Source: a virus. Taken from it: a stretch of DNA of 38,921 nucleotides. Under the pieces are notes generated by a model. The model did not search any database, was not told where the DNA came from, and saw nothing but the letters and a program-made list of their open reading frames with translations. Below, piece after piece: positions 1 through 38,921 of this stretch. A program made the translations under genes and the position numbers. The stretch covers positions 1-38,921 of the IMG/VR virus record IMGVR_UViG_3300048930_000268. The stretch is one strand, 5' to 3'. The stretch's first letter is position 1; each line of letters opens with the position of its first letter.

Positions 1-216
1 ACGCCTCGACGGAGCTGTTTCCCCACGCCACGACGGAGCTGTTTCCCCACGCCACGACGGAGCTGTTTCCCCACGCCACGACGGAGCTGTTTCCCCACGC
101 CACGACGGAGCTGTTTCCCCACGCCACGACGGAGCTGTTGTCCCGCGCCACGACGGAGCTGTTTCCCCACGCCTCGACGGAGCTGTTTCCCCACGCCTCG
201 ACGGAGCTGTTTCCCC
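1..216. repeat. 24-bp tandem repeat array, left part (9 copies)
   Basis: Nine direct copies of a 24-bp unit (acgccacgacggagctgttt plus cccc) run without spacers. Copies differ at a few positions only (cctcg/ccacg, tttcccc/ttgtccc, acgcc/gcgcc). The array lies inside the minus-strand repeat gene and each copy encodes one octapeptide. The right part is at 38687-38921. Near-identity between copies points to recent expansion by slippage or unequal recombination. Confidence 0.95.
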
Positions 217-334
217 ACGCCTTCGAGACGTGAATCTTGGCCCCTTCCGACCTGATCTCGATTCGCGTATATGCTTCAAACTTGTCAGGCAAAGCGTCTA
301 GCTCCGCCTGGGTCTTAATGACGATGACGTTCAT
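1..334 (-). CDS. Octapeptide-repeat protein, N-terminal part (gene runs off the window start)
   Basis: This is the 5' part of a minus-strand gene whose remainder lies at 38091-38921. It starts at ATG 334, after the codons that end the preceding gene. Residues 1-39 form a short non-repeated head (starts MNVIVIKTQAELDAL), followed by nine 8-residue units of the pattern (G/D/E)NSSV(V/E)A(W/R). Such regular units suggest a beta-helix or solenoid. The frame stays open to base 1 and would join the right-hand piece in frame if 5 bases (tcccc), or 5 plus a multiple of 24, are missing between the window ends. Function is unknown. The same architecture, repeats followed by a YRAITGAC-containing C-terminal domain, occurs in my recollection in uncharacterised phage and bacterial proteins. 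Confidence 0.75.
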   Translation of the reverse strand, partial: MNVIVIKTQAELDALPDKFEAYTRIEIRSEGAKIHVSKAWGNSSVEAWGNSSVEAWGNSSVVARDNSSVVAWGNSSVVAWGNSSVVAWGNSSVVAWGNSSVVAWGNSSVEA

Positions 335-1116: not shown

Positions 1117-1718
1117 TGGCGAACCGCCTTTTTCATGACTTCCACGGCTGAGGTCGGATCGCGCTTCTCAAGCAACGCGGAACATATAGCCTCATACTGC
1201 TGAAGGCTCAGGGCCTTGCTCGACTCAACTCCAAAGGCTCCAAGCAAAACGGCCTTCAGCTCCTCGTTGGTCCATTGGGCGTCCCTGGAGAGCGCGAACA
1301 TTCGGCCAAGCTGCTTCTCCGTTACCGGCCCTGTTTGCTTGCTAGGAAATGTACGCTTCGAGGGCGAGTCCACGATGCGTTCACCCTCATCAAGCTCATC
1401 GGCGCAGAACTGAGTCCCATAGCCGACCAGCGCAAGAGCGCGACCAATTGCCCCGGTCTCTGACTTCTCGATGAAATCTCCAAAGCCCTTCACGTCTTCG
1501 ACCTTGTGCGAAGTCGAGATGACTCTTCCGGCTTCGTCTCGAATGGTGGCCTTTGCCATCGCCCAATCTTTCTCCACCCGAAGGATTTCCGTCTCGATGC
1601 TCCAGTTAGGATGATCCTCGCGGAACCACACCACACGATACTTGACCTCAAGGTAGTCCTTCCCGCGAAGGGACAGGATGGGCAAAGATGTGCCCTTGGC
1701 CGTTTTCTGCGTCGTCAT
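1113..1718 (-). CDS. Putative ssDNA-annealing / recombination protein (Rad52-like, tentative)
   Basis: 201 residues, ATG 1718 overlapping the stop of the Gp157-like gene (ATGA). The N-terminal two thirds have a pattern shared by phage annealing-type proteins: a strand-rich start (DYLEVKYRVVWFREDHPNWS), then the conserved helix motif EKSETGAIGRALALVGYGTQ at residues 84-103, then DELDEGERIVDSP. The ETGAIGRAL signature is reminiscent of Rad52/Sak-type proteins. Residues about 130-190 (VTEKQLGRMFALSR...LSLQQYEAICSALLEK) look like the small helical tail found in phage recombination and replication proteins. Its place next to Gp157 supports a DNA-recombination role. A catalytic function is not demonstrable by eye; a profile search would decide. 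Confidence 0.55.
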   Translation of the reverse strand: MTTQKTAKGTSLPILSLRGKDYLEVKYRVVWFREDHPNWSIETEILRVEKDWAMAKATIRDEAGRVISTSHKVEDVKGFGDFIEKSETGAIGRALALVGYGTQFCADELDEGERIVDSPSKRTFPSKQTGPVTEKQLGRMFALSRDAQWTNEELKAVLLGAFGVESSKALSLQQYEAICSALLEKRDPTSAVEVMKKAVRQ

Positions 1719-2224
1719 TTGTCCGCCTTGTTGATGTATTGGCGGACACCAAAAGAAGGAACCACCGTCACGCCAGGGACGCTCGCGCCAGTTTTAATGG
1801 TCTCCTCGATCTTCTCGCGATCAGGCTTCACTTTCGTTTCGATCATCTTGAAGTCGTCGGGCAAAGACGACTCGTCGATGGCGAGTGAGGGACGGCTGCG
1901 TACCATCTTGAACCTGGCATCAACTCCTTTCAGCTCATCCGTTCCCATCTCGTGCATGGCGAGTTTCAGCCGGTCTTTCATGCGCTCGCGAGCTTGGCGG
2001 CAGCCTTTGGCGATGCGATCAAACGCATCGGCTTTTTGCTTCCAGTAGCCTTCCTCAAGATCCAGCCGCTCAAGAACGGCAGCGTAAGAGTCGATTTTGG
2101 CGGGGATCTTTGCATCAAGAGCCAGAAGACCCGCTTCCATCTCCGGAGTAATCTCGCCACCCGACTCCACGAGGGCAGCCGTGATGTCTTTAAGCTGCGC
2201 GACCATCATCATCAGGTTTTCCAT
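1715..2224 (-). CDS. Siphovirus Gp157-like protein
   Basis: 169 residues. ATG 2224 follows a strong ribosome site (AGGAGAAAC). The protein has the layout of the Sipho_Gp157 family (Pfam PF05565): an acidic helical N-terminus (LKDITAALVESGGEITPEME), a helical middle (DSYAAVLERLDLEEGYWKQK, then RIAKGCRQARERMKDRLKLAMHEMG) and a C-terminal strand part with the family-like tract FKMVRSRPSLAIDESSLPDD followed by PGVTVVPSFGVRQYI. The family was first noted in Streptococcus thermophilus phages and is usually encoded beside annealing proteins or SSB. Its biochemical role is not settled. The neighbour at 1113-1718 fits that context. Confidence 0.85.
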   Translation of the reverse strand: MENLMMMVAQLKDITAALVESGGEITPEMEAGLLALDAKIPAKIDSYAAVLERLDLEEGYWKQKADAFDRIAKGCRQARERMKDRLKLAMHEMGTDELKGVDARFKMVRSRPSLAIDESSLPDDFKMIETKVKPDREKIEETIKTGASVPGVTVVPSFGVRQYINKADK

Positions 2225-36051: not shown

Positions 36052-36713
36052 TTCGGGTCCTTGTCCTTTTCACGTTCGCGAAGTAGGCGCATGTAGCCCT
36101 CGTGCGCGGTGAGCGCGTTGTCGCCGCTTCGTCGTTCGATGGACGGCATCGGGATTCTCGTCACGTCGACGCCCTGCTCGGCGAGCGAATAGCTCGACTG
36201 GACTTGGTCTCGGAGCTGGGCCACGAACTGCCCCTCGTCCATTTCGCGTTGTGACGAGATCATTTGCTGCCAGCCGCCGCGTTCGCAGATTGCGTTCCAT
36301 GCGATGGGCCCCAGCTCTGCGATCACGGCTTCCTTGAAGGACTCGAACCTTTGGCGCTTGCCGCCGACGAAGGCTTCCCAGTACCGGCCCTTGACACCGA
36401 GGTAGCCCTCCTCCCAGACGTAGCCGTGGGCGACGAGGGCCTTGTCGATCTTTCGCGCGAGCGTGGTCGCGAGTTCGCGTTTGTCGATGCTGGAGCCGGG
36501 CGTGATCCGGGCCTTGATGTCCGCTGGCATCGGCATTTTGGAGCGCCCTTGTTCGCCGCGAAAGGCCACCATTGCGGACTTCACCGATGACGCGGGAATG
36601 CCAGCGAGCTGGTCGGCCCACGCGCGCAGTTTGACTTCGTTCATTGGCGCATCCCAGTACGCCGCATCTTCAAGAATCAGGGCCTTGATCGCCTGGACGT
36701 TCGTATCGCTCAC
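36048..36713 (-). CDS. Putative replication accessory / helicase-loader-like protein
   Basis: 221 residues starting at GTG 36713 (GTGA overlap with the initiator stop). The N-terminal 80 residues (ALILEDAAYWDAPMNEVKLR, AWADQLAGIPASSVKSAMVA, SKMPMPADIKARITPGSS) resemble the N-terminal helical domain of phage G40P-loader-like proteins. In a leftward replication module directly after an initiator it takes the place of lambda P. No Walker motif is present, so it is a loader or adaptor rather than an ATPase. Confidence 0.5.
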   Translation of the reverse strand: MSDTNVQAIKALILEDAAYWDAPMNEVKLRAWADQLAGIPASSVKSAMVAFRGEQGRSKMPMPADIKARITPGSSIDKRELATTLARKIDKALVAHGYVWEEGYLGVKGRYWEAFVGGKRQRFESFKEAVIAELGPIAWNAICERGGWQQMISSQREMDEGQFVAQLRDQVQSSYSLAEQGVDVTRIPMPSIERRSGDNALTAHEGYMRLLREREKDKDPK

Positions 36714-37555
36714 AGTTCCCCCTTCAGGACACGTTCGTGCATAACCCTTAGGGCGTCCGCGTTTCGCTGCGAAGTCGTCGTGGCGAGGCTGGGAAGCCCT
36801 TTACGGTAGGTTTCAAATCCATTGCTGAGCCAGTTGTTGAAGAAGCGTCCGAAATCCTTCGGAGCTTTTTTCGGATTCGCGGCAATCCATGCCTGCGCGC
36901 GCTTCGCTTCGGTCGCGATCCACTCCGCGGACGGATAGGCCTTCAACCACGCGCGTTGAAGGTCTTGGGTCACGTTCGCGAAAGCTGACGCCATGTCGGG
37001 ATCAAAATCGAAATCGGCTACTGCGCCGCGAACGGCGGCGTCTGCCGCCTGAGCGGATTTTCGCCGCCTCGGCGCAAGAGTATCCGAGAAAGAGAGAGAG
37101 TCAGGAGAATGAGAAAGAGTAGGAGTAGGAGTAGGAGTAGGAGTAGGAGTAGGAGGCTTCGCCCCGCTTGCGTCCGCTTCGTCCCGCTTCGTCCCGCTTC
37201 GCTGCAAGTTACTGATTTCATGTCGCCGCGACTCGCCAGAGGCTTCACCTCCACGAGATCCCGCTTCTTGGCGTTGCACGAGCCATGCGAACTGGATGTC
37301 GCTGCCTTCGGCAAAGTACCCGTTATGATCTGGCTGCCATTTCGCCCACCCGACATCGATCAGCGCCGGGTTCAGTCGTTGCTCATCCCATGCGGACTGT
37401 GGAATTCGGGCACGATTGCGCTTCCAGTATTTTTGAGCAGTCAGCCAAAGCCAGACCAGCGCGCCCATGGCGGATTCGGGCGACTGGAGCCGAATAACGA
37501 GATCTGTCCATCTCCGGTCCTTGAACAAGCTATCCTCAATGTTGATTCGCGCCAT
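36710..37555 (-). CDS. Putative phage replication initiator (lambda O / DnaD type)
   Basis: 281 residues from ATG 37555 (GTG 37564 is also open). The N-terminal winged-helix-like domain reads INIEDSLFKDRRWTDLVIRL, GALVWLWLTAQKYWKRNRAR, IPQSAWDEQRLNPALIDVGW, a pattern of phage replication-initiator N-termini that bind the origin. A Pro-Thr repeat (residues 135-146) links it to a helical C-terminal domain (FANVTQDLQRAWLKAYPSAE ... FGRFFNNWLSNGFETYRKG). As with lambda O, the repetitive DNA inside the gene may include the origin. The GTGA overlap ties it to the loader-like gene. Confidence 0.7.
   Translation of the reverse strand: MARINIEDSLFKDRRWTDLVIRLQSPESAMGALVWLWLTAQKYWKRNRARIPQSAWDEQRLNPALIDVGWAKWQPDHNGYFAEGSDIQFAWLVQRQEAGSRGGEASGESRRHEISNLQRSGTKRDEADASGAKPPTPTPTPTPTPTLSHSPDSLSFSDTLAPRRRKSAQAADAAVRGAVADFDFDPDMASAFANVTQDLQRAWLKAYPSAEWIATEAKRAQAWIAANPKKAPKDFGRFFNNWLSNGFETYRKGLPSLATTTSQRNADALRVMHERVLKGEL
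37117..37155. repeat. Hexanucleotide repeat within initiator gene
   Basis: Six and a half copies of GAGTAG (plus strand) lie in an almost pure purine tract (about 37084-37156). On the coding strand this is CCTACT-type sequence for the Pro-Thr linker. Adjacent at about 37165-37203 are imperfect 10-base repeats of GCTTCGTCCC. Together they resemble the iteron-containing middle of phage initiator genes, a candidate replication origin. Confidence 0.7.
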
Positions 37556-37674
37556 CCTCGGCACCCCCCTGAAAACACCTCAAGCAGACCCCCACTCCCG
37601 GTCCTTTAACAATGCGTCATCACCTCTTCGCACCATGCGGGAGGCAAAGCGTGAGCGGGGATCTGGTTGAAGCG

Positions 37675-37697: not shown

Positions 37698-38006
37698 TTA
37701 GGAGTTACAGCGGCCTTCTTCCAGTTCAGCGCCACGGGCTGCGACCTGATCATCGCGAATACCCTTGCCGATCCACATATAGACTTCCTCGAGCTTCGTG
37801 AGCGCCAGAGCCTTGGCGCGCGGCGAGCGGATGTTCGCATCAATGTCCGCTTCGATTTCCGTCATAGCCGCTTTGAAAAGCGCCTGTAACTCATTCGCCT
37901 TCTCATCGTATTTCACGTAGTCGAAGCGGCTCGTGGTCGTGGTCGTGCTCTTGCGCTCCCGATACTCCGTTCCGCTACTATCGGTGTCCTTCAATTGCGT
38001 CTCCAT
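37698..38006 (-). CDS. Acb2/Tad1-type cyclic-nucleotide sponge (anti-CBASS/anti-Thoeris)
   Basis: 102 residues, ATG 38006 behind a strong AAGGAGGAGAC site. After a Thr/Ser-rich start, FDYVKYDEKANELQALFKAA and a helix (residues 33-59), then SPRAKALALTKLEEVYMWIG as a second helix (61-80), it matches the helical-hairpin pattern of the Acb2/Tad1 domain (Pfam PF24729): Y...E...LQ.LFK.A......I......R...LALTKLEE..MW. Such proteins form oligomers that bind and sequester immune signalling nucleotides of CBASS or Thoeris. Early-operon location before the replication genes fits immediate anti-defence need. The assignment is by pattern only; which ligand it binds is unknown. Confidence 0.7.
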   Translation of the reverse strand: METQLKDTDSSGTEYRERKSTTTTTSRFDYVKYDEKANELQALFKAAMTEIEADIDANIRSPRAKALALTKLEEVYMWIGKGIRDDQVAARGAELEEGRCNS

Positions 38007-38104
38007 GTCTCCTCCTTGGCTTTCGCCGGTTGATTTAAAAAGCGCCCCGATTGTCCCTCGCGGGTATAGGCTCGGGGCCGGGCCTCAATCTCATGCTCTC
38101 GCAT
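37991..38104 (-). CDS. Possible small ORF, 37 aa
   Basis: It starts at ATG 38104 within the end of the repeat gene (14-base overlap) and ends at 37991, 16 bases inside the Acb2-like gene. The product is charged (MREHEIEARPRAYTREGQSG, then RFLNQPAKAKEETWRRN). It has no strong ribosome site of its own and it crosses a terminator-like hairpin. It may be a coupled mini-gene; the case is weak. Confidence 0.3.
   Translation of the reverse strand: MREHEIEARPRAYTREGQSGRFLNQPAKAKEETWRRN
38037..38078 (-). terminator. Candidate intrinsic terminator between repeat gene and sponge gene
   Basis: On the minus strand GCCCCGA (38078-38072) pairs with TCGGGGC (38050-38044), with a 21-base loop, followed by GCTTTTT (38043-38037). 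It lies just after the repeat-gene stop at 38091. It would end transcripts from the left part of the early operon unless antiterminated, implying a promoter before the sponge gene or a conditional attenuator. Confidence 0.45.
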
Positions 38105-38921
38105 CAAAAAACCTCCGATACTGCTCATTTCCAAACTGACCAAGAGTCCTCTCGATGACCTCAGCGACGGTGATTTCATTAGGCAGCTCAATGCCAGCAC
38201 AGAAATGCTTCGTCCCAAACTCACAGGCTCCAGTGATAGCCCTGTAAGACTGGATGGCGTCGTCAATCGCCACCTTGGTTTTCATCGTCCAAGACTCAAA
38301 GCGAGAGGTGTCCCGGTCGGACAGCTTGAAGCGAAGGTCTTTGATAGCCTCTTCGACGGTCTTGCCGTGAGAGAAAAGGTCTCCCCGGCGAACGACAAAG
38401 CTCTCGTCTTTCTTGGGGAAGTTTTGGACTGTGAAAACTTCCACATCACCCAGGGTTTTTCGAGAGACGAACTTCTGATAAATTCCGTCAGCTAGGACGT
38501 AGCCACGCTCAAGCCAAGTCTCGAAGCTGATATTAAGACCACTCATCGAAGGAGTTTCGACGACCGTAGCGGTTTCATCTTTTTTCAAAATTTCCGGTTT
38601 CACTCCACGCAAAGATGCTACTGCGTAGTCTGCCAGGTGCTTAATAAGAACAGCGGTAGACATGACTGCGATCAAGGCGAACTGGTACGCCACGACGGAG
38701 CTGTTTCCCCGCGCCACGACGGAGCTGTTTTCCCACGCCACGACGGAGCTGTTGTCCCGCGCCACGACGGAGCTGTTTCCCCGCGCCACGACGGAGCTGT
38801 TTTCCCACGCCACGACGGAGCTGTTTTCCCACGCCACGACGGAGCTGTTTCCCCACGCCTCGACGGAGCTGTTTCCCCACGCCTCGACGGAGCTGTTTCC
38901 CCGCGCCACGACGGAGCTGTT
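38091..38921 (-). CDS. Octapeptide-repeat protein, C-terminal part (gene enters from window end)
   Basis: This is the 3' part of the gene begun at 1-334. The frame is open to base 38921 and begins inside a repeat. Nine complete octapeptides, plus a partial one, end at NSSVVAYQFA. Then comes a hydrophobic-ended helix (LIAVMSTAVLIKHLADYAVA), a linker with SMSGLNISFETWLERGYVLA, a beta part (DGIYQKFVSRKTLGDVEVFT), KDESFVVRRGDLFSHGKTVE, DLRFKLSDRDTSRFESW, SYRAITGACEFGTKHFCAGI, and TVAEVIERTLGQFGNEQYRR at the C-terminus. The YRAITGAC-FGT and DRDTS motifs mark a domain I recall from uncharacterised phage and bacterial proteins with similar repeats. Function unknown. Confidence 0.75.
   Translation of the reverse strand, partial: NSSVVARGNSSVEAWGNSSVEAWGNSSVVAWENSSVVAWENSSVVARGNSSVVARDNSSVVAWENSSVVARGNSSVVAYQFALIAVMSTAVLIKHLADYAVASLRGVKPEILKKDETATVVETPSMSGLNISFETWLERGYVLADGIYQKFVSRKTLGDVEVFTVQNFPKKDESFVVRRGDLFSHGKTVEEAIKDLRFKLSDRDTSRFESWTMKTKVAIDDAIQSYRAITGACEFGTKHFCAGIELPNEITVAEVIERTLGQFGNEQYRRFFDARA
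38687..38921. repeat. 24-bp tandem repeat array, right part (9 copies plus 19 bases)
   Basis: Nine full copies of the same 24-bp unit as at 1-216, and a tenth cut after 19 bases. Variants include tttcccc, ttttccc and tgtcccg at the variable end. They encode octapeptides starting G, E or D. The two arrays are not identical in copy order, so they are not a duplicated overlap. Confidence 0.95.

Follow-up and report, generated by a model that had tools for sequence, protein, structure and literature searches.

A phage octapeptide-repeat gene split across the ends of its contig, and the exchange of repeat arrays in front of its conserved C-terminal domain

What kind of protein is encoded by the tandem repeat found at the end of this phage contig, and what could such a repeat be used for? 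The window, that is the whole stretch of DNA analysed here, is a complete IMG/VR virus record (IMGVR_UViG_3300048930_000268) of 38,921 bases, and its minus strand carries a 24-bp tandem array encoding octapeptides of the form (G/D/E)NSSV(V/E)A(W/R/Y). A first-pass annotation had placed an octapeptide-array gene at positions 38091-38921. The array is indeed present, but this interval holds only half of the gene, the start and 9 of the 19 units being located at positions 1-334. Both window ends fall inside the array and a single gene is split across the two contig ends: specifically, it runs on the minus strand from the ATG at 334 to position 1, resumes at 38921 and ends at 38091. The features of the gene and of its surroundings are the following:

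212-334, minus strand: 5' end of the gene, with the start ATG at 334, GAGGA at 343-339 and the N-terminal cap MNVIVIKTQAELDALPDKFEAYTRIEIRSEGAKIHVSKAW
1-211, minus strand: array part 1, 8 complete units followed by one truncated at the contig end (TRF 1-221, 9.2 copies, score 400)
38688-38921, minus strand: array part 2, 9 complete units preceded by one truncated at the contig end (TRF 38687-38921, 9.8 copies, score 393)
38529-38687, minus strand: hydrophobic post-array stretch (YQFALIAVMSTAVLIKHLADYAVASLRG...), with similar hydrophobic caps in relatives
38091-38528, minus strand: conserved C-terminal (YRAITGAC) domain and stop codon
37698-38006, minus strand: gene following the array gene, for a 102-aa protein with an Acb2/Tad1 hairpin domain (PF24729, 34 bits versus a cutoff of 27)
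922-1116, 1113-1718 and 1715-2224, minus strand: early genes upstream of the array gene, the last being Siphovirus Gp157

The ribosome-binding site before the ATG at 334 is a good one, and the post-array stretch is probably a solenoid C-cap plus linker. The two window ends are out of register, with five bases of a unit missing and no exact terminal overlap; therefore, the total of at least 19 units (10 at the 38687-38921 end and 9 at the 1-221 end) represents only a minimum. The adjacency of the two ends in the genome is supported by a related contig (L160), in which homologues of the window genes 1113-1718 and 36710-37564 are found on one strand, about 2.1 kb apart. When gene 36710-37564 was used as a scan query of its own, no relatives were found; within this gene, 6- to 18-bp repeats at positions 37086-37155 encode a Thr-Pro run (PTPTPTPTPTPT). 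As for the units, all the differences among them are amino-acid-changing and affect residues 1 (G/D/E), 6 (V/E) and 8 (W/R, with Y in the last unit), the three positions at which the first-pass annotation had seen the variation concentrated. In addition, the sequence on either side of the array is unique, in line with the ordinary flanks that it had described, and our data support its proposal of a recent expansion of the 24-bp minisatellite.

The genes around the array gene are early ones, the head genes being encoded on the other strand, and these surroundings support the early position attributed to it; the genes of its relatives are found near ERF, RecT or exonuclease genes. The gene immediately downstream (37698-38006) matched Thoeris anti-defense 1 in the PDB at an E value of 0.012 and, judging from its sequence, its product is likely a candidate sponge for defence signals, of either CBASS or Thoeris. 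An anti-defence role had been put forward for the array protein as well, and in that form it was not sustained; this Acb2/Tad1-like protein is its sole anti-defence neighbour and is not conserved beside the relatives. In particular, a single-sequence phmmer search recovered no relative of it in 197 fetched loci, and an anti-defence island at the array gene was rejected.

We then consider the domain that follows the array. The window's own C-terminal domain, used as a direct query, retrieved no viral relatives, and a five-member profile was required; with this profile, 108 relatives were identified in IMG/VR, 80 of which were kept. In an alignment of 71 relatives, with the window protein as row 1, residues H54, G55, T57, E60, A61, K68, T99, G100, C102 and G105 (numbering of the 145-aa stretch) are invariant in all sequences. 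The profile search proposed by the first-pass annotation returned no match of the domain to any Pfam, NCBIfam or PHROG family, an outcome in favour of that annotation. The C-terminal half compared with Pfam at E values up to 1 gave no match either, DUF7666 (PF24703) included, nor did the isolated domain match DUF7666. The AlphaFold2 model of the domain comprises five strands and a helix, followed by further helices (pLDDT 91, pTM 0.57); a new fold is not claimed, because the pTM is only 0.57. Searching the PDB for similar folds with this model produced nothing significant (best Foldseek E value 0.09; VIA Z scores up to 5.6, mostly for kinase N-lobes). Strong purifying selection acts on the domain, as indicated by dN/dS values of 0.03-0.24 in 11 pairs.

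Relatives of the domain occur in metagenome-assembled genomes (MAGs) and isolates assigned to Bacteroidota, Bacillota, Acidobacteriota, Omnitrophota, Patescibacteria and Rickettsiales, as well as in Tetrasphaera and Riemerella phages. Two copies of the domain with arrays, one near each end, are present on a 93-kb contig of a Terriglobia MAG (JAQUPQ010000012.1; L139 and L143). Another relative (L010) belongs to Dulem virus 31 (PP511318.1), which is filed under Microviridae, yet has a 35.8-kb genome with a replisome organizer and YopX; this filing is probably a taxonomy error.

In the window protein and in its relatives, the YRAITGAC domain is preceded by a near-perfect in-frame tandem array, and the kind of array is not constant. 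At least seven kinds were recognised among about 100 relatives, including NSSV octapeptides, CTFKT and STINA octapeptides, SSGDYAKVA nonapeptides, several types of 18-22-residue LRR-like units and GYGDGSG repeats. The domain tree requires at least 11 changes of array kind, compared with a minimum of 7 for 8 kinds, and places the GxG array of L026 among other array types. Therefore, array kinds are mostly inherited and sometimes swapped. The C-terminal domain is exchanged too: the window-type N-cap and octapeptide array are found joined to DUF7666 in mycobacteriophages, in Gordonia phage Spooky and in dozens of IMG/VR contigs. Specifically, the window N-cap precedes octapeptide arrays in mycobacteriophages and in 78 IMG/VR loci, 3 of which carry the YRAITGAC domain and at least 32 DUF7666. 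The PF24703 profile recognises Che8 gp59 and bbp36 and does not recognise the window protein. One contig ends in two different repeat genes, a GxG array with a YRAITGAC-type domain (L095) and, at the opposite end (L122, positions 1-1500), DUF7666 with an ATAGEYGA repeat.

No constant partner emerged among the genes neighbouring the arrays; the exception is the GxG class, which is accompanied by DUF6948 (matched by 11 of the 91 proteins scanned). A small protein precedes the GxG-array genes, usually with a short overlap, in L012, L076, L077, L081, L083, L086, L087, L090, L093, L094 and L096, and the pair formed by the GxG array and DUF6948 looks like a conserved operon. No literature on DUF7666, DUF6948 or PHROG 15773 was found among open-access publications.

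The comparison of copy number in related phages, also suggested by the first-pass annotation, showed that the number is not constant, which is again in favour of that annotation. With the reservation that repeat counts from short-read assemblies can be misjudged, the cultured phages BabeRuth and Raymond7 have 4 and 3 units, with flanks that are 100% identical along 610 bp upstream and 99.8% identical along 1150 bp downstream; in IMG/VR, the length difference between L052 and L053 is exactly 4 x 63 bp, at 99.9% identity over 4.65 kb upstream, and L195 and L196 have about 18 and about 14 units, at 97.7% identity over 5.1 kb. The mycobacteriophages BabeRuth and Rebel show a within-unit difference between identical flanks, while the arrays of L081 and L082 do not differ. 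Through these pairs of relatives, in-frame arrays differing in copy number between close relatives are documented, and the predicted change in length without loss of frame was found as the gain or loss of whole units. The companion idea of a contingency locus, taken in the on/off sense, was rejected: the 24-bp unit corresponds to 8 whole codons and the frame is kept at every length. A diversity-generating retroelement target was rejected as well on the basis of the window's units, whose differences, GTG/GAG and TGG/CGG among them, are not adenine-directed. Frame-broken DUF7666 array genes are present in mycobacteriophages EleanorGeorge and Soul22 (L129 1593-2336 and L133 1627-2210), where gene annotation lists them as short hypothetical proteins; the frame annotated in Soul22 is not that of the array. 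These broken copies in two mycobacteriophages indicate that the gene can be dispensable.

The split observed in the window is a recurrent one. Of the 80 related contigs, 41 end within the reading frame, at a point upstream of the C-terminal domain that nearly always falls inside the array; the opposite end was fetched for 28 broken contigs, and in 9 it contains the missing half of the gene, in which the repeat is the same. Chance would be expected, by a rough estimate rather than a calculation, to bring a few per cent of contigs of about 35 kb to an end inside a target as large as this one. The same break was found in an isolate genome, that of Arachidicoccus rhizosphaerae. These observations suggest that, of the unresolvable repeats in these genomes, the array is the longest; breakage alone is no demonstration of variation within a population. 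Metagenomic phage genomes commonly break in these array genes, and many that are near-complete have probably been entered as linear fragments, with their array lengths lost.

To which residues do the units change? Counting single-base changes only and keeping fewer related arrays, synonymous and nonsynonymous differences between units were 10:117 in GxG arrays (36 synonymous expected; P 8e-9), 12:58 in octapeptide and nonapeptide arrays (19 synonymous expected; P 0.03) and 65:100 in LRR-like arrays (P 1, with no amino-acid-changing excess), all P values being rough, as the arrays are not independent samples. For the octapeptide arrays, the P value of 3.5e-6 obtained with a more generous count of unit differences is superseded by the value of 0.03 under the stricter count. 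In all three classes, the new residues belong to a polar set (D, S, Y, N, R, E, W, G, H, K, Q) in excess of the mutational expectation, with similarly rough P values of 5e-19 for GxG, 2e-5 for LRR-like and 0.02 for octapeptide and nonapeptide arrays. When all arrays are considered, D, S and Y account for 51% of the residue types in variable columns versus 15% in invariant columns; the residue-specific variation noticed at first reading is supported, with a skewed alphabet at the variable positions. Variable residues occupy alternating positions of the strand in LRR-like arrays, for example in GG[SYD]L[DY]L[RE]G.

The structure prediction envisaged for the repeat was carried out on L019, an uninterrupted relative 53% identical to the window protein over the domain. 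In the AlphaFold2 model of L019 the array forms a beta-solenoid to which each octapeptide contributes one strand of four residues (array pLDDT 81-87), and this model resembles parallel beta-helices generally, with Z scores up to 10.6. From the alternation along the strand, the Val and Ala of the unit are predicted to point inward and the variable residues outward. Profiles of the T4 gp5 C-terminal trimer gave weak, sub-threshold matches only, for the window protein as for its relatives, and a match to Prion_octapep (E value 0.002, below the cutoff) was discounted as compositional.

Taken together, the reading that we favour, and to which we would give an even chance, is that of an early, cytoplasmic, accessory phage protein in which a repeat beta-solenoid provides a fast-changing binding surface joined to a conserved C-terminal domain. 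The protein is modular: a short N-cap is followed by octapeptide repeats, predicted to form a beta-solenoid, by a probable hydrophobic cap and by the C-terminal domain, some 140 residues long. The solenoid would be continually reshaped as units slip and recombine and as selection acts on the outward residues; the variable surface may bind a component of the host or of a rival element, itself variable, and the C-terminal domain, with its invariant His, Thr, Glu, Lys, Thr and Cys, would act on that target or recruit something to it. Counter-defence would be the likeliest use, given the early position, the accessory character and the patchy occurrence of the gene; this use is plausible and a reasonable guess, right perhaps one time in three.

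The evidence has to be weighed against other explanations. The array could be a neutral coding minisatellite, either a spacer within a real protein or a side product of replication, with a length and a surface that are unimportant. Freely varying copy number, the broken genes of EleanorGeorge and Soul22, the neutral synonymous to nonsynonymous proportions of the LRR-like arrays and the report that Bordetella bbp36 is non-essential (cited in PMC2884959) would all fit; however, neutrality does not account for one polar alphabet recurring in unrelated scaffolds above the mutational expectation, for the strong nonsynonymous excess of the GxG arrays or for the strong purifying selection on the C-terminal domain, and we consider it unlikely, though by no means negligible. 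A scaffold that oligomerises, with repeats stacking or intertwining as in the octapeptide triple beta-helix of T4 gp5 and thereby multimerising the C-terminal domain, would make array type and length matter little, and many unrelated repeat types could all do. The octapeptide period, the gp5-type matches and the generic beta-helix match are in its favour, yet those gp5 matches fall under the cutoffs, the monomer is already modelled as a confident solenoid, and the restricted polar alphabet and the amino-acid-changing excess are left unexplained; we regard it as quite improbable. Least probable of all, with only a slight chance of being correct, is a virion or tail component that touches the host surface and is diversified for receptor binding, as proposed for CL31 clg55 (PMC8002715). 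A phage minor tail protein with hypervariable repeats has been described (PMC8002715) and the solenoid is similar to adhesins and tailspikes, whereas the location among early replication and recombination genes, opposite in strand to the window's head genes, the proximity of relatives to ERF, RecT or exonuclease genes, and an N-terminus consisting of a plain cap with no obvious signal peptide all speak against it.

If the array is a variable binding surface, the scaffold-independent shuffling of repeats would constitute a cheap diversification system inside the cell, and natural variants would point to the target. On a wider scale, we propose tentatively, and with more doubt than confidence, that phages of many bacterial phyla may share convergent intracellular variable receptors, in which conserved effector domains (YRAITGAC, DUF7666) are combined with interchangeable scaffolds bearing an antibody-like outward alphabet (Asp, Ser, Tyr, Asn, Arg, Trp), and in which the gain, loss and substitution of units track host defences or rival elements without a dedicated mutagenic enzyme.

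How does this gene compare with known systems? The first-pass annotation had considered the protein a candidate for an undescribed one. This appears to be true of the YRAITGAC end-domain family and of its scaffold swapping, but not wholly of the kind of gene, phage coding minisatellites being already known, with bbp36 variable region 2 and Tweety gp54 as published coding repeats (PMC2884959); no published description of the C-terminal family, of its scaffold swapping or of an alphabet shared across scaffolds was found in the open-access literature. In Bordetella phage BPP-1/BMP-1, bbp36 variable region 2 has a 24-bp unit whose copy number is reported to range from 9 to 20 between isolates (PMC2884959, citing Liu et al. 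2004). Like the window gene, bbp36 has an in-frame 24-bp unit encoding octapeptide repeats and maps to the early region, close to an exonuclease gene; unlike the window protein, its array reads GTATAGYR/GTATAGES, DUF7666 is at its N-terminus (E value 1.7e-10) and the YRAITGAC domain is absent. It is, in other words, a DUF7666 protein with an octapeptide array, and DUF7666 is common to bbp36 and to carriers of the window-type octapeptide array.

Among the latter, Che8 gp59, ThetaBob gp59 and BabeRuth gp45 (PHROG 15773) share with the window protein the kind of N-cap, a (G/D)SxxV(V/E)A(W/R) array, the early position and a variable number of units, whereas their C-terminal domain is DUF7666, for which no sequence relation to the window's C-terminal domain is detectable. 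Tweety gp54 and Che8 gp57 also carry in-frame repeats with restricted residues (in their case G/W/Q and S/Y) and a copy number that differs between phages, but the repeat is an Ala-rich tetrapeptide and the flanking domains are others; Che8 gp57 has no Pfam match. In these genes the changes between repeats occur almost only at first and second codon positions, and the authors suggest 'selection for variation' (PMC2884959). In corynephage CL31, clg55 contains a coding minisatellite whose copy number differs from plaque to plaque and which defeats short-read assembly (PMC8002715). It is comparable to the YRAITGAC and DUF7666 array genes as a coding minisatellite of variable copy number, while its 42-bp unit and its putative minor tail protein product set it apart from the window gene.

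Finally, leucine-rich-repeat receptors combine conserved framework residues with variable residues at alternating positions of the strand. The likeness between these receptors and the array protein would be one of working principle, and is drawn here as an analogy only.
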